Below are positions 936-11,183 of a stretch of DNA of 12,271 nt, piece by piece (positions within the stretch are counted from its first letter, which is position 1; every line of letters begins with the position of its first letter). Made by a program: the position numbers and the translations under genes. The notes beneath the pieces are model-generated. The model did no database searches. It saw nothing but the letters and a program-made list of their open reading frames with translations, and was not told the DNA's origin. This DNA is from Deltaproteobacteria bacterium (GTDB taxonomy: Bacteria; Myxococcota_A; UBA796): positions 1 to 12,271 of the forward strand of contig PALY01000150.1 in NCBI GenBank assembly GCA_002707085.1. Direction: 5' to 3'.

Positions 936-2570
936 TCACCGCTGTAAGCGGTCAATCCGCGCCAAATACTCTGCATCAACAGGCACCTTGGACCGGTGAC
1001 GTTCCAACAGTCCAGCATGGTCCGACAAACTCTGTACAGGCTTGAGCGCAGCCTGCATGACCAACACAGCCATACGTGATGCAAGTCGGCGGAACCGAAG
1101 CGCTGCCAAGTCTGCATCCAAGGTGAGGATGGACTCCATCTCAAGGCGGTCGTCTCGCACCGCCTCTTCGCCGAGAACACCAGCAACGGTATCGAAGAAA
1201 CCATTGTGGACCCCCAGTCGGGCGCAGTCTCGAAGAACCTGGGCTCTCAACACGTTGTGCGTGCCTTCCCAATTCTCGTACACAACGTTGTCTCGCAACA
1301 GTCGCGGAAGAATGGAAAAACTCTCAATGGCACCATTCCCACCCAAAATTTCAATGCCGTGATTGACAGCATCATGAGCCAATACTGCAGTCTGGAGCTT
1401 ATTCAAGTTCACAGCCACCCGAAAGAAGCCAGCCTCGCCTGAACTCAGGTCCCCTGCCTCAAGCCGCTCAAGCATGCCAGAGAGCCACAAGGTAGACGCA
1501 ATACTGCCTGCTGCATCAGCCCGCATCCAGGCAAGGGTTTCCCGGACCGTAGAAAATTGGGCAATGGGTTGACCAAAAGCCTTTCGGTGCTGAGCGTACG
1601 TACTGGCCACCACCCAAGCTCGCCGTGCATGAGCCGCACAGCCCGACGCGTTGTACAAACGAGAGGTTGTAATCACCAACTGCATGACCGACTTGAACCC
1701 ATCATCCACAGGTCCCAACGCCTCTGCATATGCTTCCGAAAAGTCGATTTCGCCCGATGCCATCGAACGGGTGCCCAGCTTGTCTTTCAAGCGTCGAATG
1801 CGGAAGTTGTTCACTGTGCCATCGGGCTTGAGTCGGGGCACGAGAAATAAGCCAAGTCCTTTGGTGCCATCCGCGCCACCATCGGGCCTGGCAGTCATCA
1901 CGAATACGTCAGCGTCTGCGTTGGAACAAAACCATTTCTCTCCCGAGATACTCCAGATAGACCCTGGGTCACGTCCCCCACTCACCATGGATGCAGACAC
2001 AGTGTTGGCGCCAACGTCGGAGCCGCCCTGTACTTCGGTCAGAAACTGACTGGCCGTGAAATTGGTATCGAAATCCGGGTCCAATAGCGGCGTTAGATAC
2101 GCCTCTTTCTGCGTTTCTGTTCCAAGCGCAGATAGTGTTCGAATCGCACCAGCATCACAAGCCAAGGGACAGTTATGTCCCCCCTCTCCTGCCTGTGCCG
2201 TGAGGTAAAACAACGTAAGAATCGAACGGTGCGACACCGGAGCTTCCGCATACAAAGCCATGATGCCCGTGCCATAAATCAGCCGACCAGCCTCCCACCA
2301 TGTCGGATGATGGTGAACCTTCGCCGTGTATTCACCAATGCCATTCCAATTGTCCAAGACGGGCAGGTTTCGGTGCAGATTGTTTTCCCGAACTGCGGCA
2401 TCGAGTGGTCCAGCCACAGCTTTGCCAGCATTGGAGAACTGCTCTTCTCTAGCACCCAAACCATGGTGACCGATGAGGGCGCACAAATCCGTGTCATCCA
2501 CATACAAGTCTGTGGGCTGGGCCCATACCCAAGCGGCAAGATCAGCTCTTCCACGTTCGGTTGCACTCAT
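936..2570 (-). CDS. Acyl-CoA dehydrogenase, AidB-like
   Basis: A flavoprotein of the acyl-CoA dehydrogenase family, 544 residues, within the longer AidB-type subgroup (typical short-chain members have about 380-400 residues). Visible motifs are 'LTEVQGGSDVGAN' at 178-190 (flavin/substrate loop), 'GEKWFCSN' at 210-217, 'HRKAFGQPI' at 328-336, 'GGNGAIE' at 410-416 and 'YENWEGTHNV' at 431-440. E435 in the last motif lines up with the usual catalytic glutamate region. An N-terminal extension of about 170 residues precedes the core, as in AidB. The reaction is expected to be FAD-dependent alpha,beta-dehydrogenation of an acyl-CoA, although AidB itself is linked to alkylation response and has little classical activity. 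I chose ATG at 2570 over TTG at 2576, because GAGGAG at 2577-2582 lies 6 bases before the ATG but directly abuts the TTG. It follows the peptidase gene by 54 bases and may be co-transcribed with the lipid operon. The substrate is unknown. Confidence 0.9.
   Translation of the reverse strand: MSATERGRADLAAWVWAQPTDLYVDDTDLCALIGHHGLGAREEQFSNAGKAVAGPLDAAVRENNLHRNLPVLDNWNGIGEYTAKVHHHPTWWEAGRLIYGTGIMALYAEAPVSHRSILTLFYLTAQAGEGGHNCPLACDAGAIRTLSALGTETQKEAYLTPLLDPDFDTNFTASQFLTEVQGGSDVGANTVSASMVSGGRDPGSIWSISGEKWFCSNADADVFVMTARPDGGADGTKGLGLFLVPRLKPDGTVNNFRIRRLKDKLGTRSMASGEIDFSEAYAEALGPVDDGFKSVMQLVITTSRLYNASGCAAHARRAWVVASTYAQHRKAFGQPIAQFSTVRETLAWMRADAAGSIASTLWLSGMLERLEAGDLSSGEAGFFRVAVNLNKLQTAVLAHDAVNHGIEILGGNGAIESFSILPRLLRDNVVYENWEGTHNVLRAQVLRDCARLGVHNGFFDTVAGVLGEEAVRDDRLEMESILTLDADLAALRFRRLASRMAVLVMQAALKPVQSLSDHAGLLERHRSKVPVDAEYLARIDRLQR
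938..952. terminator. Short hairpin at the convergent gene junction, possible weak bidirectional terminator
   Basis: ACCGCT and AGCGGT form a perfect 6-bp inverted repeat around a 3-base loop. It sits at the 3' end of the minus-strand gene, whose stop codon is at 936-938, and 9 bases after the stop of the plus-strand gene. No U-tract follows on either strand, so an intrinsic terminator is only a possibility. The position between converging genes is the main argument for it. Confidence 0.2.
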
Positions 2571-2576
2571 ATTCAA

Positions 2577-2624: not shown

Positions 2625-3590
2625 TCAGAAACATATGTGGATGTGGTCATCGTGTCCCGGAGATGCAGTCACTCCGGGGACGGCTCCGATAACGGAGGGA
2701 TCATTAAAATAGACAAAGGTTGGGCTGTGATTGGCGATTGCATATTCTAAAAACGCCTGTGTTAACGGCCGACTGTAGCCCCCTTCATACCCATCGCGAT
2801 CATCGGGTCGGTTGTACCAAGCTTCGTATCGAGAGCCATCGTTTCGAAACAAACGAATATCCGCGCATCGAGCATGATCACTTTTGTGACCCAAGGGGTC
2901 GGGGCGTGTATCGTTGTACCAGCCCAAATCCCCGACCTGTACCGTACAGTTTGTCGGCGTCGCATCTGGAAAGGAAAGAGCGCGACAATGGGAACGCCAC
3001 CCATAGAACAATTCGATCAAAGCAATAATCGTATCCGGGTAGCCCCACCGATCGGAACGCGGAGAGTCCGAACCAAGAAAGTGGAGATAAATCGGCCCTT
3101 CTTTGTCCTCTGCCCCCACAGCGTCCGTGGCTTTTAGTTTCTGTTGTGGTGAATGCAAACCTTCACGAGCCTGCTCTAAAGCACGCTCCTCTTTGCTCAA
3201 CTCTCGAACCATAGGAAGGGCAACTCGCCCCCATTCAGTGGACTTCATGGCCTGGGCATCGATGGGTCCAAAACGGGACTCCCACGCCATACGGACACGC
3301 AATTCAGCCCGCGGATCTCCCGGAGGCGTACCCGCATCTTTCAACACTTTTGTGTCTACACAATATTTGGCACCTACAGTTGCGAGGGACACCTTGGGCA
3401 CACGATACCAAGGGTCTACGACGAGGATCTGAATTGGAGTTTGGTGGTCTTGACACGCCCCCGGAACCACTTGCACCGTACTGTCTCTGGGCAACCATGA
3501 GTACTCTACATCGATCCCCACCGACATACCGTCGGGCGCCACTCTTTGGATGGGTCCAGCAAGTACGCTTCCAATCAACCAAAACATCAT
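2625..3590 (-). CDS. MepA-like (peptidase M74, LAS-type) putative murein endopeptidase
   Basis: A 321-residue protein whose C-terminal half resembles penicillin-insensitive murein endopeptidase MepA. 'VQVGDLGW' (217-224) recalls the MepA 'GDLS/GDMS' segment. 'GHKSDHARCADIRLF' (234-248) sits where MepA has GHxSHxxGxDVDI. The protein ends in 'GHDDHIHICF' (312-321), very close to the MepA C-terminal GHDxHFHV zinc/active-site motif. MepA enzymes cleave peptidoglycan cross-links in the periplasm. The N-terminus (residues 1-12) is a short hydrophobic stretch without a clear positive region, so it is a weak signal peptide or lipid-free anchor. The spacing of the first metal motif differs from MepA (see findings), so activity is not certain. 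ATG at 3588-3590 overlaps the exporter stop as ATGA; a second ATG follows immediately. No Shine-Dalgarno site is seen, consistent with coupled translation. Residues about 100-165, rich in charged residues, match nothing I know. Confidence 0.7.
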   Translation of the reverse strand: MMFWLIGSVLAGPIQRVAPDGMSVGIDVEYSWLPRDSTVQVVPGACQDHQTPIQILVVDPWYRVPKVSLATVGAKYCVDTKVLKDAGTPPGDPRAELRVRMAWESRFGPIDAQAMKSTEWGRVALPMVRELSKEERALEQAREGLHSPQQKLKATDAVGAEDKEGPIYLHFLGSDSPRSDRWGYPDTIIALIELFYGWRSHCRALSFPDATPTNCTVQVGDLGWYNDTRPDPLGHKSDHARCADIRLFRNDGSRYEAWYNRPDDRDGYEGGYSRPLTQAFLEYAIANHSPTFVYFNDPSVIGAVPGVTASPGHDDHIHICF

Positions 3591-5824
3591 CGTCGAGCAG
3601 TCACCACAAGCAAAGCGGGTATCACAAGAAGATCGCAGAAAAAGGCCGCCACCAATGAGATCGCCAACAAGCAGCCAAAGTAGGCCACACTCTTGATATC
3701 AGCCAACCCCAAGACGGAGAAACCACCCGCCAACACCACAGTGGTCACAGCCATCGGACGCCCTACCGAGGTCACAGTCTCCTGCACGGCCTTCACGATG
3801 TCAGAGGTTTCAGCAAGAACCGCCCGATAACGGTACAAAAATTGGGTGGTATCATCCACCACCAGACCCAGAACAATGGCAGCGATTGTGACCGTCGCGA
3901 CGTCGAGTCGGATGCCCAGCAACCCCATACATCCGAGCGTGAACAACACGGGCATCAGATTCGCTGGAATCGCCAGCACAGCCATTCTAAATGAACGGAA
4001 CAACAGGCCAATCAAAGTGAAGATAACGATGAAGGCCCATGTAAAACTTGAGAGCTGGCTACTGATGATGTGGTCCATGATTCGAACATGCAACGGGATG
4101 TACCCAGCGGGTTGAATCGTCGCCCCATCGGGAAGTACCGCATGATCTGTCAGTCGCTCAATGGTCTGACCAAAGGTTTTGGCGCTGGCCATGGGCACAC
4201 CCACTGTCACACGCGCTTGGGTTTCTGTGGAATCCAGAAAACGTGCAAGATTCGCATCCGAATCCGCCTCAAACAAAAACAACAACTGTTCCAACGCTTC
4301 AGGGTTTTCCGGTATGGATCCTACGGGTCGCTGACCCATGACTCGATCCAAGCCCATGACCACATCTGCCAGCGAGCGTGTCCATCCCACGTCTTCTTCC
4401 ATTTCCATCTTGTCTTGCCAACTGGAAATGGATGCAAGAATCTCAGGGTCCTTGACTCCGTCAGGGTGAGAAACCACAAACTCAAGCGGAGTATAAGGAC
4501 CAAACTCCTCCTCAATCCGATCAGAATCGATGCGCACTTCATGGTCCGGATACAGAAAGTCTATGGAATAGGTATCGACCACGATGCGAGTAATGCCCAT
4601 CATCGAACCCAGACACACAAAGCCAGCGACAATCAAAACTGGCACTGGCCTGTGAACCGCCAATCTGGCCATCAAATCGATTCCACGCTGCAACAATCCC
4701 TCTTTCCGAAAGACGGGAAGAACTGTGGGGTGTAGAGCAAATATCGAACATAAAATCAAGGACGCCACAAAAGCTGCGACCAACCCCAAGGCACAGAACA
4801 CGCCCAGGTCCCGAATCACCGGCATGCTGGCTGTAGCGAGAGCCAAAAAGCCCATGGCTGTAGTCAAGGTGTTGAACAAACAAGGCCACAGCACCTTGCC
4901 GATCCCGCGCTTTACTCTTTCCATGGGTGGGAGTTCCGCAGGCTGATCTGCGACATGCACCAACATGTGAACACAGTCGCTCACCCCGATGACCAAGACC
5001 AGTGTCGGCATCACCATGGTGACCATATTGATGTCATGCCCGGTCGCACCGTACAAACCCAACAACCAAATGGCACCGAGCCCCACAACACTCAAGATCA
5101 AAAGCACAGCCCGCCATCGACGAAACAAGGCCCACAGCAAGGCCATAATCAAGACATACGAAGCTGAAATCACAACCGCCGCACCTTGGGTCGCAGCCTG
5201 ATTCAATGCTGCGTATACAACCCCAATTCCAGCAAAGGTGGCTTCTGTCTCCACCGCCTGAACCGCGGTCTGCACATCCGCCAAAATGCCATCTCTTGCG
5301 GTATCGATATTGTCCATGGACTCCATCTCGGCCAACACAATCGCGGTGCGACCATCTTCCGAGATCATGGACCCCACCAAAGCGTCACTCTGCAATGCTT
5401 TTTGCGCTTCTGCTACCTGTGAAGTCTCGATGGGGCCGTCATCAATCAGGGGAGCCACGACCAATGCACCATCGACATCACGAACCAGCGGTTCCGTGAC
5501 TATCGAACGAACCCGAGCAATACCGGAAACGCCCAGAGCCGCGTCGCCAACAGCATCAATGCGACGCAAACCGGACGGTTCTATGAGTGTGCCTTCTTTG
5601 GAATGCACTCCAATCACTACAACTTCGTCATTTCCAAAAGTCTCAAGAAAGTCGTTGTATGCAATCAATGACGGGTCATCGTCCAAAAACCAGATTTCCA
5701 CAGCATTGTCGACACCAACACCGGCCGCACCAAACACGGACAAGCCGGTGATCATGGCCACGAATAAAAGGAGCCAACGGCGAGCCCGAATGACCCATTC
5801 AACCCACGCCTCAGCCCGATTCAT
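3587..5824 (-). CDS. RND superfamily exporter, MMPL/HAE3 type
   Basis: A 745-residue inner-membrane transporter with the duplicated RND layout. TM1 is at about residues 16-38, followed by a large periplasmic loop (39-212), then TM2-6 at about 215-372. TM7 is at about 393-415, followed by a second loop (416-590), then TM8-12 at about 594-742. The proton-relay positions in TM4 and TM10 carry 'GVSDCVHML' (280-288) and 'GLVVDDTTQFLYRYR' (653-667), both with the expected acidic residues. The length and two similar loops fit the HAE3/MMPL 'predicted exporter' group, which includes hopanoid and lipid transporters such as HpnN, rather than the roughly 1000-residue AcrB type. No periplasmic adaptor or outer-membrane channel gene is in the window. 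ATG at 5822-5824 overlaps the BtaA-like stop (ATGA), and the gene's own stop overlaps the peptidase start in the same way. A lipid cargo is inferred from the neighbours. Confidence 0.88.
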   Translation of the reverse strand: MNRAEAWVEWVIRARRWLLLFVAMITGLSVFGAAGVGVDNAVEIWFLDDDPSLIAYNDFLETFGNDEVVVIGVHSKEGTLIEPSGLRRIDAVGDAALGVSGIARVRSIVTEPLVRDVDGALVVAPLIDDGPIETSQVAEAQKALQSDALVGSMISEDGRTAIVLAEMESMDNIDTARDGILADVQTAVQAVETEATFAGIGVVYAALNQAATQGAAVVISASYVLIMALLWALFRRWRAVLLILSVVGLGAIWLLGLYGATGHDINMVTMVMPTLVLVIGVSDCVHMLVHVADQPAELPPMERVKRGIGKVLWPCLFNTLTTAMGFLALATASMPVIRDLGVFCALGLVAAFVASLILCSIFALHPTVLPVFRKEGLLQRGIDLMARLAVHRPVPVLIVAGFVCLGSMMGITRIVVDTYSIDFLYPDHEVRIDSDRIEEEFGPYTPLEFVVSHPDGVKDPEILASISSWQDKMEMEEDVGWTRSLADVVMGLDRVMGQRPVGSIPENPEALEQLLFLFEADSDANLARFLDSTETQARVTVGVPMASAKTFGQTIERLTDHAVLPDGATIQPAGYIPLHVRIMDHIISSQLSSFTWAFIVIFTLIGLLFRSFRMAVLAIPANLMPVLFTLGCMGLLGIRLDVATVTIAAIVLGLVVDDTTQFLYRYRAVLAETSDIVKAVQETVTSVGRPMAVTTVVLAGGFSVLGLADIKSVAYFGCLLAISLVAAFFCDLLVIPALLVVTARR

Positions 5825-6927
5825 CGGACAGTTTCCAACTGAAAGTCACCATAGACAAAAGCCCTATCGTTCACGATCAGTTCAGCAGCTTTTGCCTCAT
5901 TTCGGTCCAATACATCTGCCATCTGTTCTGGACGATGACGGGGAACAAGCAAATTCCAATATGCGATTCGACCACCCTGTCGGGATGCACGCACACAACA
6001 CCGAAGCAACGACGCTGTTTCTTCCTCGCTTAAATATTCGGGAACATCGGACAAATTGAAGGCGGAGTACGTCCCTTCATCACATGCATTGAGATGCGAT
6101 ATCAAATCGTCATGCACGAAAGTGAACCTATCTGCCACCTTGGCAAGGGCCGCATGCCCCTCTGCAGATAGGTACGGATGACTATTGTCAACGTTTCGGT
6201 ACTCCCCACCCAAAATCCACTGCACAAACGGGTTGTCCGCAACAGGCATTGTGGTGAGTACGTGTTCCGTCCGGCTCATAAATGCCTGGCTAATCGGACC
6301 TTGAACATGAGCGAACTGAGCCGGGCTTCTTCCGCTTCTTTGCATCACCGCTTTTGAAAAGAACACTCGGAACATGCTCCGCCAACGAAAGGTATTCCAT
6401 CGCTGGTCATAGAATTGTCTTTGCTCGGAAACGTCCGACATGTCTAAGAATTGGTCAACGATTTTTCGGCGGTGAACCAAGGGCAGGACGCGCGTACGGA
6501 ATGTCGACAAATAACGTTCAAATTTTCCGCAATTCAGCAAGCCCGAACGAATCCACGCTTCGTGTGAATCCCACCACAAGCGAGTTGATTCATCCAGAAA
6601 TGGTCGCAACTCGTGGTACAGAAACACCCTTTGACCAATCGGACCCACCCCCAAAAAAGAACGAAACCGTTCCAGGTCGAACTTTTCAGCGGCCACCAAC
6701 TTCAACTTCGCCAATGCGATTTGTGGCGCAGACAAATCAATGCAAGTGACGGTTCGAGCGCCCGCGATGGCCAAGGCAAAGGCGTTGTCTCCCGCCGAAC
6801 AAATGCTCAACACATCGTCCTGTGGTCCGACATCAAGCGCTTCTTGCAACATTCGAGGGTCTTCCCAGCATTGCGCATAAGAAATGCGTTCACCCAAAGC
6901 AGCCCGCGTTGCATCTGTACCGCTCAT
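5821..6927 (-). CDS. btaA: BtaA-like (DUF3419) SAM:diacylglycerol 3-amino-3-carboxypropyltransferase
   Basis: A 368-residue protein of the DUF3419/BtaA family. Visible family signatures are 'ISYAQCWEDPRML' (15-27), the SAM-binding 'SICSAGDNAFALA' (41-53), 'CIDLSAPQIALAKLKL' (62-77), 'FNLSDVPEYLS' (290-300) and 'WNLLVPR' (324-330). BtaA transfers the 3-amino-3-carboxypropyl group of S-adenosylmethionine to the free hydroxyl of diacylglycerol, giving diacylglyceryl-homoserine, the precursor of betaine lipid DGTS. The usual partner BtaB, which N-methylates the product, is not in the window. The product could therefore be a homoserine lipid, or BtaB could lie elsewhere. ATG at 6925-6927 overlaps the dikinase stop (ATGA), and a GGAGCGAGG Shine-Dalgarno stretch precedes it at 6931-6939. 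The symbol reflects family membership; the acceptor lipid here is unproven and could differ, given the prenyltransferase in the operon. Confidence 0.82.
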   Translation of the reverse strand: MSGTDATRAALGERISYAQCWEDPRMLQEALDVGPQDDVLSICSAGDNAFALAIAGARTVTCIDLSAPQIALAKLKLVAAEKFDLERFRSFLGVGPIGQRVFLYHELRPFLDESTRLWWDSHEAWIRSGLLNCGKFERYLSTFRTRVLPLVHRRKIVDQFLDMSDVSEQRQFYDQRWNTFRWRSMFRVFFSKAVMQRSGRSPAQFAHVQGPISQAFMSRTEHVLTTMPVADNPFVQWILGGEYRNVDNSHPYLSAEGHAALAKVADRFTFVHDDLISHLNACDEGTYSAFNLSDVPEYLSEEETASLLRCCVRASRQGGRIAYWNLLVPRHRPEQMADVLDRNEAKAAELIVNDRAFVYGDFQLETVR

Positions 6928-9425
6928 GCGCCTCGCTCCAGCAACTCAACGGTTCCTACAATTGCATCCACTCGGACACGATCACCATTTTGCAGAGAGT
7001 CCATCGCTCCAGCGACAGAAACCACAGTGGGAATTCCCATCTCACGGGCAACTACAGCACTGTGTGAAAGCAAACTTCCACGTTCAACCACCATCGCCGA
7101 AATTCTGGGGAACAGTGGCACCCACCCCGGATCCGTACGGTATGCGACCATGACTGCGCCATCGATATCACCAGCATCATTCGGGTCGACCACTCGACGC
7201 ACAAACCCCTCGACCACACCCGGGCACGCTGCCAACCCTTGCAGTCCGTCTCCAGATGGCGCCTTGGGGCGCCCCAAAAATTGATTGTAGGACCACACAG
7301 GACCCCAAGTATGGAACCTGTCTGCTGGCTCTGGAGTCTTGCCCCAATGGGCGTACTCTTGGCGCCGCAAAGAGACGAGGCCACGAAGATTGGTCGTCAC
7401 TGCGGTTCCACGTACCCAACCAAAGGATTCATCGACTGTGAGCCAAAAGATATCTCGTGGCTCCTCAATGGCTCCACTCGCACTCATGTGACCACCCAAA
7501 GCAATGAAAAGATCACGGACGCGCCCGAAGATCCTTGTCCGCAAGAAACGAAGGTTTTCCCGGTCCCGAACCCGACGGCGTGCGCGAACCAACACCCAAC
7601 GGAATACCCATTTACGGAGTCCCGAAAGTTCAGAAAACGCGCGACTCTCCGCCTCCAAACGCATCTGCTTCTCGTGGTGTCCCATGTTCTCCGCACTTAG
7701 GCTGCCACCGCGAAGATATGCACGCAGCGTGGCCACCAGCAATCCTGGCTGGTGACGTAAAGTTGGAACCTCCAGCTTCAATTCATCTGCGCAACGATCT
7801 CCCCATGTTTCAAGGTAATCGTCCAGCGTATTGCGCAAAGCGGGAACTTCTTGGGTCGCTTCATATAGTTGATCGTCGGACATCGATGATTCAAACAAAA
7901 CACGCCATTCGGTTGTGTTTTGAATCCTTTGTGCAATCCGAAGCCCATCTACAGCGGGTGCCGCACTGTGCAGCCCCCCCTCTCCTGCCAACAAACCGTT
8001 GTGCAGATCTTCACCATCTGGAATCCACTTCCCACACAATTTCCGCAACAAGCCATGAAAGATCATGACAAAAAAGTCATTCACAATGGGCGTTGACCAT
8101 GCCCACAACAAACGCTTCTCTAAATCTCCGTACACATCCAACAAGCCCATCGGAGGCGTATCTGTGAGGTCACGAGGGTGAGCATGCATGGCGTCTTCAA
8201 AACGCTTCGTGAAGGTCACAACGTCCTTATCGAGCCGCCCTGCCCGCCAACACAAACCCGCCACACTTCGAAGCAATGACGGCAATGCTCTCCACTTGCT
8301 TGTGGTGTCTGTCACGGGCTGCGCCACTTCAGACACACCCATCATCTGTTCCATGAATTCCTGATTCCAACGATGGCCAGGCAATAAAGAAACAACGGTG
8401 TACCAAGCATCCAAGTTGTAAAAGATGCGACCCCGGATCAGTCCAATCATTCGAGGGAACACACTGGCATTTTCTTGAATCACGTCAGGGTGAACACCCA
8501 TGACTTGGCAGAACAAGCGATACACAATCGTGTATGCACGACTCGCAAAACTATAGGTCAATGGACCGGTCAAGCCGTGGTAGCTCTCAATGATGTTGCT
8601 GTTGTCCCACAAGAGTCTTCTGCCCTGAGGCATCGCCTGTGTCACAGGCCTGGTTTGAAGCAACACCAATCGGTCCCCTTGGCGAGTCCATTCGATGTCT
8701 TGAGGACCACCGAGTGCAGTTTCAAGGGCGCGAGCAACCGATGCCAACTCTCGTGCTTGGTGTTCAGAAAGCGAGGCTTCCTGTTGCATCGTTTCGGGAA
8801 CAGGAACCTCTGCTGGATGGCCATCAATCATGGAAATCGCAACATCCTTGGAAATCACGATGCTCTCAACATCACCGCCTCTGTTCACACGAAATGTGTC
8901 GCAAGGTACCGTTCCTTGAACAACGCCCTCGCCCAGACCCCAAGCTGCGGAGATCAAGGTGCTATCGGGGTCTGCTGGATCGGATGAAAACATGACACCG
9001 CTGGCGTCGCCTTCCACCATCACCTGCACAATTACGGCAACAGGGGTTGATTCAAGTCGATGCTCTGACAAATACGCCTGTACTCGGGGGTGGTTCGCAC
9101 TTGAGCGACATCGCGTAATGGAGGTCAGTAAAGTATCGGCATCGGTCACACCCAATATGCTTTCGTACATACCGGCAAAGCTGTGATCAATGCCATCTTC
9201 AGCAATGGCGCTGGACCGAACAACCACACGATTCCAGTCGGAACTCTTCATGGCCATGTCACGCCATGCACGAACAGCACCCATCGGGTCATGCCCTGGC
9301 GGCAAAACAAACCAAGCAGGAACTTCAGCCCCCGACCTCATCAGTCGGATCAAGCCTCTTGCCTTTCCCCCAACCGCTTCCGGGGCATTGGCTTGGGCTG
9401 CAGCATCCAATCCAAAAATCACCAT
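6924..9425 (-). CDS. PEP-synthase/rifampin-phosphotransferase-like dikinase with ATP-grasp and phosphohistidine domains
   Basis: About 833 residues from ATG at 9425. The N-terminal PPDK/PEP-synthase ATP-binding domain (1-262) shows 'VGGKARGL' (18-25), 'VVVRSSAIAEDG' (67-78), 'SFAGMYES' (82-89), 'QVMVEGDASGVMFSSDP' (134-150), 'WGLGEGVVQG' (162-171) and 'LVLLQTRPVT' (253-262). A long middle region (263-720) begins 'LLWDNSNIIESYHGLTGPLT'. The C-terminal swivelling phosphohistidine domain (about 728-830) contains 'RGSLLSHSAVVAREMGIPT' (782-800), with H788 as the likely phosphorylated His. There is no PEP/pyruvate-binding TIM barrel, so it cannot be a complete PEP synthase. The order ATP, substrate, His matches rifampin phosphotransferase. 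The likely chemistry is transfer of the ATP beta-phosphate through His to an unknown hydroxyl compound. GTG at 9437 and GTG at 9422 are alternative starts. From 9425 the overlap with the upstream UbiA-like gene is 7 bases. Drug resistance is not implied. Confidence 0.82.
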   Translation of the reverse strand: MVIFGLDAAAQANAPEAVGGKARGLIRLMRSGAEVPAWFVLPPGHDPMGAVRAWRDMAMKSSDWNRVVVRSSAIAEDGIDHSFAGMYESILGVTDADTLLTSITRCRSSANHPRVQAYLSEHRLESTPVAVIVQVMVEGDASGVMFSSDPADPDSTLISAAWGLGEGVVQGTVPCDTFRVNRGGDVESIVISKDVAISMIDGHPAEVPVPETMQQEASLSEHQARELASVARALETALGGPQDIEWTRQGDRLVLLQTRPVTQAMPQGRRLLWDNSNIIESYHGLTGPLTYSFASRAYTIVYRLFCQVMGVHPDVIQENASVFPRMIGLIRGRIFYNLDAWYTVVSLLPGHRWNQEFMEQMMGVSEVAQPVTDTTSKWRALPSLLRSVAGLCWRAGRLDKDVVTFTKRFEDAMHAHPRDLTDTPPMGLLDVYGDLEKRLLWAWSTPIVNDFFVMIFHGLLRKLCGKWIPDGEDLHNGLLAGEGGLHSAAPAVDGLRIAQRIQNTTEWRVLFESSMSDDQLYEATQEVPALRNTLDDYLETWGDRCADELKLEVPTLRHQPGLLVATLRAYLRGGSLSAENMGHHEKQMRLEAESRAFSELSGLRKWVFRWVLVRARRRVRDRENLRFLRTRIFGRVRDLFIALGGHMSASGAIEEPRDIFWLTVDESFGWVRGTAVTTNLRGLVSLRRQEYAHWGKTPEPADRFHTWGPVWSYNQFLGRPKAPSGDGLQGLAACPGVVEGFVRRVVDPNDAGDIDGAVMVAYRTDPGWVPLFPRISAMVVERGSLLSHSAVVAREMGIPTVVSVAGAMDSLQNGDRVRVDAIVGTVELLERGA
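6931..6939 (-). promoter_or_regulatory. Ribosome binding site of the BtaA-like gene
   Basis: On the minus strand this reads GGAGCGAGG, three bases before ATG at 6927, and lies inside the last codons of the dikinase gene. It supports the annotated start and translation re-initiation at the ATGA overlap. Confidence 0.5.
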
Positions 9426-10306
9426 GCGAGAACCCACACAAACACAAAGTCCAGCAGCAATGCAATGGTAGCTACAGCCTCTGTTTTCTTGGCGTTCAGA
9501 CGACCAAAAACAATGCTACTGCTGACCAACATCGCCGAACCTAAGATCACTGAAACAAGGACATAATCGCCCATCTCCCATGCCATGATTCCAAAACAAG
9601 TGGAAGCCAACACACGAATCCTACGCAGCATTCGATTTGCACGCGTAATGCCCAATACACTGGAGTAGCTTTCGACACCGGCAATTTCTTCTGCTGGTAG
9701 GCGAATCTTTCTCCCCACCTCAAAAGCCAATGAACCCAGAGACACACCCAACAAATACAAGCCAAGCAAGGGATGCCATGAAGTATCGGTGACCACCCAC
9801 AAAAATACGCCCAACAAAGCCACGATGGGGTTGTGCGTCACCGCATAAATCACCAAATGTCGATTCAGCCAACGACCCACACCAAATTCAACTTTCATCA
9901 GTACCGTGAAGACCAAACACGCCGCCCACGCCATCAATGCATTGAGCGAAATGCTTAAAGAAAGCAGCATTTCCAGGAGTACGGCCAAATAGCCAACCTT
10001 CGCCAGTAACGGCAAGGTGACCACCCCACGGCTCAACAGCCGCTGTGGATACGCAACCAAGTCTCCTGCTGCATCCTTGTGTTCATCCATGATTCTCAGG
10101 TGAAGAAAAACCAACAGCACCACCATTGCGGCACGTATTTCAGTTTCAAGCGGTATCTGGACACCACCCAAGTGGCCGGCGATGGCAAATGCGCTGCCCG
10201 CAAACAGGACAACCAGCACCGTGTAGGCGACCGGTGGAAACCGCTCTACCGCATAGCCCCACAGTCGTCTGTACATGGGGTCGCTGGGCTGAATCTGTGT
10301 AGACAT
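9419..10306 (-). CDS. UbiA-family membrane prenyltransferase, variant-motif subgroup
   Basis: A 295-residue polytopic membrane protein with about eight hydrophobic segments, typical of UbiA prenyltransferases, which move a polyprenyl group from its diphosphate to a membrane-bound or small acceptor. The first aspartate-rich motif is 'RIMDEHKDAAGD' (71-82), equivalent to NDxxDxxxD but reading D74-E75-x2-D78-x3-D82. The second motif region is 'FEVGRKIRLPAEEIAGVESY' (195-214), where Lys/Arg and Glu stand in place of the usual aspartates. Other likely conserved stretches are 'KVEFGVGRWL' (138-147) and 'THNP' (157-160). From memory, a UbiA subgroup with MDExKD and ExGRKIR motifs exists, so the changes look like subgroup features rather than decay. 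The acceptor is unknown. It is the first gene of the overlapping operon. No Shine-Dalgarno site precedes ATG at 10306; ATG at 10276 (residue 11) is an alternative. Confidence 0.8.
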   Translation of the reverse strand: MSTQIQPSDPMYRRLWGYAVERFPPVAYTVLVVLFAGSAFAIAGHLGGVQIPLETEIRAAMVVLLVFLHLRIMDEHKDAAGDLVAYPQRLLSRGVVTLPLLAKVGYLAVLLEMLLSLSISLNALMAWAACLVFTVLMKVEFGVGRWLNRHLVIYAVTHNPIVALLGVFLWVVTDTSWHPLLGLYLLGVSLGSLAFEVGRKIRLPAEEIAGVESYSSVLGITRANRMLRRIRVLASTCFGIMAWEMGDYVLVSVILGSAMLVSSSIVFGRLNAKKTEAVATIALLLDFVFVWVLAW

Positions 10307-10307
10307 C

Positions 10308-11183
10308 TTGAAGCCAAGGTATCCCGGGCCATACCCCCGAATGAAACAGCCATGTGAATTGAGAACTCTAGTGTTTCGGGAGGATAAATCCCCAGCTATC
10401 TTTCATGAGGACAGCGACACACGAATCGGAACCGGGTGTTTCATGGGCAAAAACGCGGCAATACCAGCGCACAGCAACCCTTTCTTGCAGCACGAGCTGG
10501 CAGGATGGGAGCCCGTACATCCACACATTCGATACCCGGTCACGTTTGGCTTGTACCAAGAGGGAAGCAATCTGGGACTGTTTTTGGCACCTGTGAATAT
10601 GGCGATGCTTCACAAAGTCATTGACATCCCAGACACTGACCAGGCCCTGATTTTGCAAGGGGCGCAAGTTCTTGGAGATGCTTTTCTACAAGCACCTGAC
10701 CGGGGCGAGTTGGGTCCCTGGTCTGCCGTGCCCTACGCAAACAATGAAGTCGACATCATCCACTTTCCGAAGGGGGTCGCAGTCGATCCGGAAACCTGCG
10801 ACATTCTTACTCCTATTCTCGCAGCCCCTGAACATGCTGTACCCACAGAACTCGGATCTCGGGTCGCCATCAGTCTCAACGATAGCTGCCATGCTGCAGT
10901 CATATCTCCAGACCACAGGCTGATAAGAAACTGTTTGACGGGCTTTATTCGGAACTACGCATCCAGCGTTCTTGAACGTGACGCGGCGATCCCCTCGCTC
11001 CCCAGCCAATTGGTGGAGTCTTTACTCCAGCCCATGCAACCCGGTGAATGGAACGAACTTCGATTCCAGCCAGCCCAACGCTACTGGATGCTGGAGTTTT
11101 CTGGAAAGTCCGACCAAGAGGCGCCAGAGCGTTGGGTATGTGAGGGCGAACATGGACGTTGGCGTGGTGGGTGGTCCTGGTAG
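10308..11183 (+). CDS. Unrecognised soluble protein; start uncertain
   Basis: An open frame of up to 291 residues ending with TAG at 11181-11183. I do not recognise the family. It has no signal peptide and no membrane segment. Visible features are a His/Pro-rich segment around residue 73 ('WEPVHPHIRYPVTFGLYQ'), a moderately hydrophobic stretch 'LGLFLAPVNMAMLHK', and a basic/Trp-rich C-terminus ending 'GRWRGGWSW'. The ATG at 10308 is one base from the divergent UbiA-like start, leaving no room for a promoter, and has no Shine-Dalgarno site. The first 20 residues are Pro-rich and look non-coding. ATG 10341, GTG 10371 and ATG 10443 (giving 246 residues) are in-frame alternatives; the last fits a candidate promoter at 10359-10388. 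It reads in the same direction as ribonuclease D, 36 bases upstream of it, so the two may be co-transcribed. I assign no function. Confidence 0.6.
   Translation: MKPRYPGPYPRMKQPCELRTLVFREDKSPAIFHEDSDTRIGTGCFMGKNAAIPAHSNPFLQHELAGWEPVHPHIRYPVTFGLYQEGSNLGLFLAPVNMAMLHKVIDIPDTDQALILQGAQVLGDAFLQAPDRGELGPWSAVPYANNEVDIIHFPKGVAVDPETCDILTPILAAPEHAVPTELGSRVAISLNDSCHAAVISPDHRLIRNCLTGFIRNYASSVLERDAAIPSLPSQLVESLLQPMQPGEWNELRFQPAQRYWMLEFSGKSDQEAPERWVCEGEHGRWRGGWSW
10318..10335. promoter_or_regulatory. Interrupted dyad at the divergent junction, possible operator
   Basis: GGTAT and ATACC are a perfect 5-bp inverted repeat separated by eight GC-rich bases. The dyad lies 12-29 bases upstream of the UbiA-like start, where a regulator could act on the minus-strand operon. 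Five-base arms can occur by chance, so this is only a candidate. Confidence 0.15.
10359..10388 (+). promoter_or_regulatory. Candidate sigma-70-like promoter for the plus-strand gene
   Basis: TTGAGA at 10359-10364 matches the -35 consensus at 5 of 6 positions. After an 18-base spacer, GATAAA at 10383-10388 matches the -10 consensus at 4 of 6. If used, transcription would start near 10395, downstream of the ATG codons at 10308 and 10341. That would put the start of the unknown protein at ATG 10443. The match is imperfect and untested. Confidence 0.25.

Follow-up and report, generated by a model that had tools for sequence, protein, structure and literature searches.

A conserved gene set around a UbiA-like prenyltransferase and a BtaA-like transferase suggests a candidate lipid pathway in Myxococcota and other bacterial phyla

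The contig PALY01000150.1 of a deltaproteobacterial genome (G000:C150; assembly of 3.87 Mb in 165 contigs, 72% complete) was analysed over its entire length of 12,271 bases, which we call the window. It carries an operon of five genes encoding a UbiA-like prenyltransferase, a dikinase-like protein (PPDK), a BtaA-like transferase, an exporter of the RND family and a MepA-like peptidase. Our results strongly support that the first four of these genes form one pathway. The gene set is larger and wider than is visible from the window: it adds a CdsA/phytol-kinase-like protein (CTK), a GNAT protein, an OleC-like AMP-ligase (AMPL) and often a class I HMG-CoA reductase (HMGR), and it is found in many phyla. 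Our best guess, offered tentatively, is that the product would be a lipid with a homoserine-type, N-acylated headgroup.

The five-gene operon is present as the first-pass annotation had described it, with all open reading frames on the minus strand, head to tail and overlapping. The first gene (9419..10306) encodes a UbiA-family membrane prenyltransferase of a divergent subfamily, in which the first Asp motif is retained and the second is substituted. It is followed by PPDK (6924..9437, with a GTG start at 9437 or an ATG start at 9425), a swivelling-phosphohistidine enzyme with ATP-grasp and His domains, and by the BtaA-like (DUF3419) transferase of a GDN subfamily (5821..6927), for which the transfer of a 3-amino-3-carboxypropyl group from S-adenosylmethionine (SAM) is predicted as the likely reaction. 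The RND/MMPL (HAE3-like) exporter (3587..5824) and the MepA-like putative peptidase (2625..3590) complete the operon. Exact ATGA overlaps join PPDK to BtaA (6924..6927), BtaA to RND (5821..5824) and RND to MepA (3587..3590) on the same strand, and UbiA and PPDK overlap by ATGGTGA (9419..9425, minus strand), which is 7 bases counted from the ATG and 19 from the GTG.

To describe the neighbourhood in other bacteria, named genomes were scanned with the UbiA alignment, which gave 55 loci. These are a sample, as the scan starts from two short motifs and stops at 80 matching stretches; several of the window's relatives are found again in it, and many contigs are cut. When partner genes were sought by tblastn at 1e-6, PPDK was found in 45 of the 55 loci, AMPL in 34, BtaA in 30, CTK in 25, GNAT in 24, HMGR in 16 and RND in 10. 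At least one of BtaA, CTK, GNAT, AMPL and HMGR was present in 44 of 55. Of the 51 loci that offered 300 bases or more for a judgement, 44 had PPDK immediately behind UbiA and in the same orientation; among the seven misses, L078 carries a frame-broken PPDK just after UbiA, and L045, L052, L054, L077, L083 and L085 are without PPDK. UbiA, PPDK, BtaA, CTK and AMPL stood together in 20 loci, 16 of which also had GNAT, and BtaA accompanied HMGR in all 16 HMGR loci. Outside Myxococcota the typical order is HMGR-BtaA-CTK-GNAT-AMPL-UbiA-PPDK, with frequent 4-base overlaps. By their record titles, which can err, the multi-gene loci belong to Lentisphaerae, Kiritimatiellae, Planctomycetaceae, Verrucomicrobia, Desulfobacterales, Omnitrophota, Nitrospirota, Armatimonadetes, Spirochaetales and Sphingomonadales. 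The record CAMAWH010000031.1 (L037; metagenome-assembled genome MaH-04nov19-8) is titled Klebsiella pneumoniae, but its 60,135 bases and its gene order match L029 (G040:C31), a genome of the window's order, so that the Klebsiella name looks wrong.

The pairwise distances of the seven enzymes were correlated (r 0.64-0.91 over 11-43 loci; permutation p 0.001, the minimum with 999 shuffles; no species-tree correction), which fits a joint inheritance of the seven enzymes. In the cultured strain Roseinatronobacter sp. S2, six genes in the order UbiA-PPDK-DUF3419-CTK-GNAT-AMPL are borne on a plasmid (NZ_CP121116.1, 128207-136191); CTK and GNAT were named there by place and length, both being annotated as hypothetical proteins with no Pfam match. 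The first 9 kb across the start of the plasmid record contain no annotated HMGR, but the gene table is possibly incomplete there. The trait is patchy: in a sample of 97 genomes from the phylum to which L076 belongs (titled Omnitrophota), the seed genome alone had CTK.

From these data it is extremely improbable that the genes lie side by side but share no product. Overlapping genes are common in compact operons, and some UbiA of the subfamily occur without the other genes (L045, L054, L077), but the same families recur in differing orders, in different phyla and on a plasmid, and they co-occur even where they are not linked. The three exceptional loci have room downstream of UbiA, yet neither PPDK nor another cluster gene is in the locus; their UbiA may have a different role or belong to a split cluster, and the genome of L045 (G016) has CTK elsewhere. 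The first-pass annotation had taken all five genes for one pathway and had named rare co-occurrence of the families as evidence against it. The families do recur together across genomes, and the claim is well supported for UbiA, PPDK, the BtaA-like protein and RND; MepA was not found near the cluster elsewhere.

The organisation in Myxococcota was followed in a panel of 58 genomes, the window's own and its relatives. UbiA matched in 14 of them, in G001 by a 31-residue fragment only, and 13 longer stretches around UbiA from the relatives (L018-L030) were examined for gene order. All seven stretches that reach BtaA showed the order UbiA-PPDK-BtaA, and RNase D lies divergent beside UbiA in all seven. 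RND comes next in six (L020, L021, L023, L027, L029, L030); L026 is without it. The stretches L018, L019, L025 and L028 end within or just past PPDK and L022 right after UbiA, and L024 has room after UbiA but no PPDK.

A full-length CTK was located outside the operon in seven relatives of the window. GNAT and AMPL adjoin it in four of these (L105-L108), GNAT alone precedes the contig end in L103, and in L104 and L102 GNAT lies about 5 or 8 kb from CTK. Full length was defined as E <1e-50, a threshold set after the gap was seen; the next match, with an internal stop, had 1.5e-24. Among the 58 genomes, 11 had both UbiA and a full-length CTK, 1 had CTK only, 3 had UbiA only and 43 had neither (Fisher p 1.8e-8; kinship not corrected). 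The three genomes with UbiA only were G000, the window's own, with 72% completeness, G024 with 73% and G001 with 80%; G001 has a CTK fragment near a GNAT match on the same contig. The sole relative with a full-length CTK but no UbiA match is G035. The GNAT profile is broad, matching 46 of the 58 genomes, and was excluded from the co-occurrence counts. The best explanation is that the window holds the UbiA-PPDK-BtaA-RND half of the pathway, and that the CTK-GNAT-AMPL half lies elsewhere in the relatives and beside UbiA-PPDK-BtaA in other phyla.

We consider it possible, though short of probable, that the pathway joins an isoprenoid or alkyl chain, an aminocarboxypropyl group and an N-acyl chain by the following steps, whose substrates and order are predicted from the enzyme families. 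CTK and PPDK would activate a lipid alcohol, its acceptor or both, by phosphorylation or in some other way. UbiA would then move a prenyl or alkyl chain within the membrane onto an aliphatic hydroxyl, most like digeranylgeranylglyceryl phosphate (DGGGP) synthase, and the BtaA-like enzyme would add the 3-amino-3-carboxypropyl (homoserine-type) group from SAM. AMPL would activate an acyl chain that GNAT attaches to the free amine, replacing the N-methylation by BtaB. Finally, RND, where present, may extract the amphiphile from the inner membrane. The source of mevalonate, or of another HMGR-made alcohol, would be HMGR or, in Myxococcota, the general mevalonate pathway.

The UbiA subfamily is defined by its motifs. 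The first Asp-rich motif was present in 56 of 56 copies. UbiA prenyltransferases have DxxxD as their second Asp-rich motif, and at this site 54 of the 56 copies carry ExxRK, the remaining two being cut or open-ended; the pattern D-x3-D-x(2-4)-G was found anywhere in UbiA in only 5 of 56. PF01040 matched 26 of 29 family members; the window copy was not one of them. Among solved structures, the UbiA profile was closest to DGGGP synthase (PDB 6m31) with E 6.3e-6, and the second was chlorophyll synthase with an E value of only 0.07. DGGGP synthase prenylates an aliphatic hydroxyl.

This closest solved relative, the weakly CdsA-like fold of CTK and the class I HMGR with 6hr7 as its nearest relative would all be expected if the cluster were a bacterial version of the archaeal ether-lipid pathway, in which UbiA served as DGGGP synthase and CTK as CDP-archaeol synthase. 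Compared with DGGGP synthase, the cluster UbiA has ExxRK in place of the second Asp motif. Against the archaeal route, geranylgeranylglyceryl phosphate (GGGP) synthase (PF01884) was unmatched in 19 of 21 cluster genomes, several of them incomplete. These 21 comprise the window's own genome and 20 others that have the cluster, whole or in its split form. The two remaining matches were short (50-61 of 226 positions, 25-26 bits at a cut-off of 23.9). We therefore rejected the archaeal route on GGGP synthase and regard it as very improbable.

CTK has motifs that may place it in the CdsA / phytol- and dolichol-kinase superfamily. For the CTK model, the two best VIA rows were CDP-diacylglycerol synthetase, the likeness to the CdsA fold being weak; among the families listed there, Foldseek gave no match at E 0.001. 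Small CTK-like proteins are common in Myxococcota genomes, and in the three that were scanned (L114-L116) they had no CdsA Pfam match. With such motifs and fold, and with two phosphate-type enzymes adjoining UbiA, the cluster could activate or salvage a prenyl alcohol such as phytol or a polyprenol. CTK and PPDK would then make a prenyl diphosphate, UbiA would pass it to an acceptor, and AMPL and GNAT would make storage esters or amides. The relation of UbiA to chlorophyll synthase points in the same direction, but the kinase activity of CTK is only putative, and the BtaA-like gene and the HMGR gene directly beside it are left unexplained. We consider such a salvage route quite improbable.

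In the window, PPDK has an ATP-grasp and a mobile His domain. The swivel His motif was found in 37 of 37 full-length PPDK, with 7 partial copies and 1 with a stop left out. The PEP/pyruvate-binding barrel gave no Pfam match, either in the window protein (E 0.1) or in the Roseinatronobacter protein (0.01). The solved matches 5fbs, 5hv1 and 5hv2 are titled phosphoenolpyruvate (PEP) synthase; we take them to be rifampin phosphotransferases. PPDK resembles the Rph/PigC/RedH-type phosphohistidine enzymes in its domains and in the lack of a detected barrel, but differs from them in scoring below every NCBIfam cut-off.

Over almost the entire length, PPDK scored 262 bits to RedH and 249 bits to PigC. 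From this it could be a ligase of the PigC/RedH type that condenses the two halves of a secreted specialised metabolite, with AMPL and GNAT building one half, the BtaA-like enzyme decorating it and RND exporting it. The patchy occurrence (one genome in the sample of 97), the plasmid-borne copy and the exporter in some loci would suit such a compound. However, the scores are far below the RedH and PigC cut-offs (1350 and 1300), and a model named PEP synthase scores higher (746 of 883). Three of the proteins, UbiA, CTK and RND, lie in the membrane and come from lipid-type families, and within the window's order the operon lies in a stable chromosomal site beside RNase D. Genes for carrier proteins, polyketides or peptide synthetases were not noticed, although no search was aimed at these. 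A specialised metabolite of this kind therefore appears somewhat unlikely.

The headgroup of the proposed lipid would come from the BtaA-like protein. The window protein matches the BtaA family PF11899 with E 1.2e-68, and many homologues are automatically named diacylglycerol transferase. This would be expected if the cluster made a variant of an ordinary homoserine or betaine glycerolipid, with the BtaA-like enzyme acting on diacylglycerol and the other genes only tuning the supply. As a reference, we used two rhizobial BtaA proteins that have a BtaB-like neighbour and carry SGGCN. The cluster proteins had a median identity of 21-24% to these two, and GDN was found in 30 of 31, with SGGCN in one (L071). 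The BtaB query was the methyltransferase beside the BtaA of R. leguminosarum, called BtaB by its position and annotated as a class I SAM methyltransferase. In tblastn it gave no match above noise in the cluster loci, with clear matches in L113 and L112 only and the next at E 0.058. In addition, UbiA, PPDK, CTK, GNAT and AMPL are constant companions. A glycerolipid variant is improbable on these grounds. The cluster shares with the BtaA/BtaB pathway a DUF3419 transferase of the BtaA family and SAM as the likely donor. It differs in the missing BtaB-like neighbour, in the GDN motif and in the other conserved enzymes around, and GNAT and AMPL suggest that N-acylation may replace N-methylation. 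The first-pass annotation had named a homoserine-type headgroup and a lipid product, both of which fit the families as candidate features; UbiA, the BtaA-like protein and PPDK are all divergent subfamilies.

The two enzymes predicted to carry out the N-acylation are GNAT and AMPL. Acetyltransf_1 matched 17 of 20 GNAT members. Bacterial ceramide synthase would be a model for GNAT; a literature search on it gave nothing useful. The AMPL of L042 matches PF00501 and scored 398 bits to PRK09274 and 238-241 bits to the OleC models, with scores to acyl-ligase models as well. It is alike to the OleC-type AMP-ligases of the PRK09274 group in these scores, but stays below the cut-offs (478, 850 and 900). 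In L066 (1-3651, Pontiellaceae B1224), a second AMP-ligase, an alpha/beta hydrolase and a B12-binding radical SAM protein precede the cluster, and AMP-ligase-like matches are also present upstream of HMGR in L074, L075, L076 and L078.

Among the 21 genomes, some of which are incomplete, HMGR was found in 18, mevalonate-diphosphate decarboxylase over the cut-off in 8 and Dxr in 10, with one further partial match. All seven Myxococcota relatives had HMGR and the decarboxylase and none had Dxr; the window's own genome (72% complete) gave no match to any of the three. Of the 13 non-Myxococcota genomes, 11 had HMGR, one had the decarboxylase over the cut-off, and eight had HMGR and Dxr without the decarboxylase. 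The search for mevalonate kinase covered 16 genomes, 3 of Myxococcota and the 13 others. The kinase was over the cut-off in two, both Myxococcota, and just under it in G063, and four of the 16 had no match whatever. With 6hr7 as its best solved relative, the cluster HMGR falls into class I. All 15 copies without a stop have GDKK and GQD, and 13 of them have the Glu motif (one copy is cut, one has AATEG); when the copies are aligned, the Glu, Asp and His columns do not vary. The class I enzyme with its catalytic residues in place is shared with the mevalonate pathway, but the eight genomes with HMGR and Dxr and no decarboxylase over the cut-off are unlike it. As judged from gene content, the set outside Myxococcota does not make up a mevalonate pathway. 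HMGR is absent from two genomes that have the core, one of them the complete WC36 chromosome, so it is not always required or it is replaceable.

A more specific proposal, which we regard as rather unlikely, is that the backbone of the lipid would be not glycerol but mevalonate or another HMGR-made diol. It would carry a homoserine-type headgroup and two chains, one isoprenoid or alkyl and the other an acyl chain bound as an amide. Such a backbone would explain the orphan class I HMGR beside the BtaA-like gene in bacteria that use the methylerythritol phosphate (MEP) route.

Export had also been proposed by the first-pass annotation, and this holds in part. RND lies within the conserved block in the Myxococcota loci, but is present in only 10 of the 55 loci of the wide sample, so export would not be universal. 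The window RND belongs with the HAE3/MMPL proteins (HpnN, BstA and MmpL3 models) by family and by its position beside lipid-type enzymes; it differs in lying under the cut-off of each named model.

The statement that no pathway with this set is described agrees with a limited literature search, in which no description was found. The consulted portion of PMC7852524, on archaeal lipids in FCB bacteria, makes no mention of Omnitrophota, Lentisphaerae or Kiritimatiellae. Judged against this limited literature, the pathway as a whole is probably new, with each enzyme coming from a known superfamily. By record titles, six or seven enzymes are kept together from Myxococcota to Alphaproteobacteria, with Lentisphaerae, Planctomycetes, Desulfobacterota and Omnitrophota in this range, and point to a compound that is unaccounted for by the pathways tested. 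Its pathway would give roles to the orphan HMGR in MEP bacteria, to the GDN subfamily of DUF3419 and to the UbiA subfamily without the second Asp motif. Since a compact plasmid operon is present in a cultured strain, the question is directly testable.

The fifth gene of the window encodes a protein with the MepA (M74)/LAS fold, in which the conserved His/Asp site is present and the N-terminal part is SH3-like. Among the families listed there, Foldseek gave no match at E 0.001. Its membership in the conserved pathway is unsupported, as tblastn found no MepA in the fetched loci, of which L018 and L019 end before that place. The MepA and BtaA homologues share longest-contig sizes (14858, 115382, 7691, 5080, 48552, 3975, 12060 and 11520), a circumstantial observation that suggests linkage of the two genes in near relatives.

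Downstream of the operon on the same strand lies an AidB-like acyl-CoA dehydrogenase (936-2576, minus strand), and a PKD-domain-like protein is at the contig edge (3-929, plus strand). The dehydrogenase was not found in L018-L030, which leaves it unsupported as a member of the pathway. On the other side, the open reading frame X1 (10308-11183, plus strand) is divergent from UbiA and beside it; it had no Pfam match and is kept at the same position in the two same-genus contigs L018 and L019, and weakly in L033. RNase D is likewise unsupported as a pathway member, not being beside the cluster in L042-L085. RNase D and, farther out, Tad-pilus genes make up the recurring chromosomal neighbourhood of the operon in the window's order. 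The Tad/Flp pilus genes beyond RNase D (RcpC, secretin and a TadZ-like ATPase) are located at 2237-5808 in L020, and the same families recur in some of L021, L023, L026, L027 and L030.

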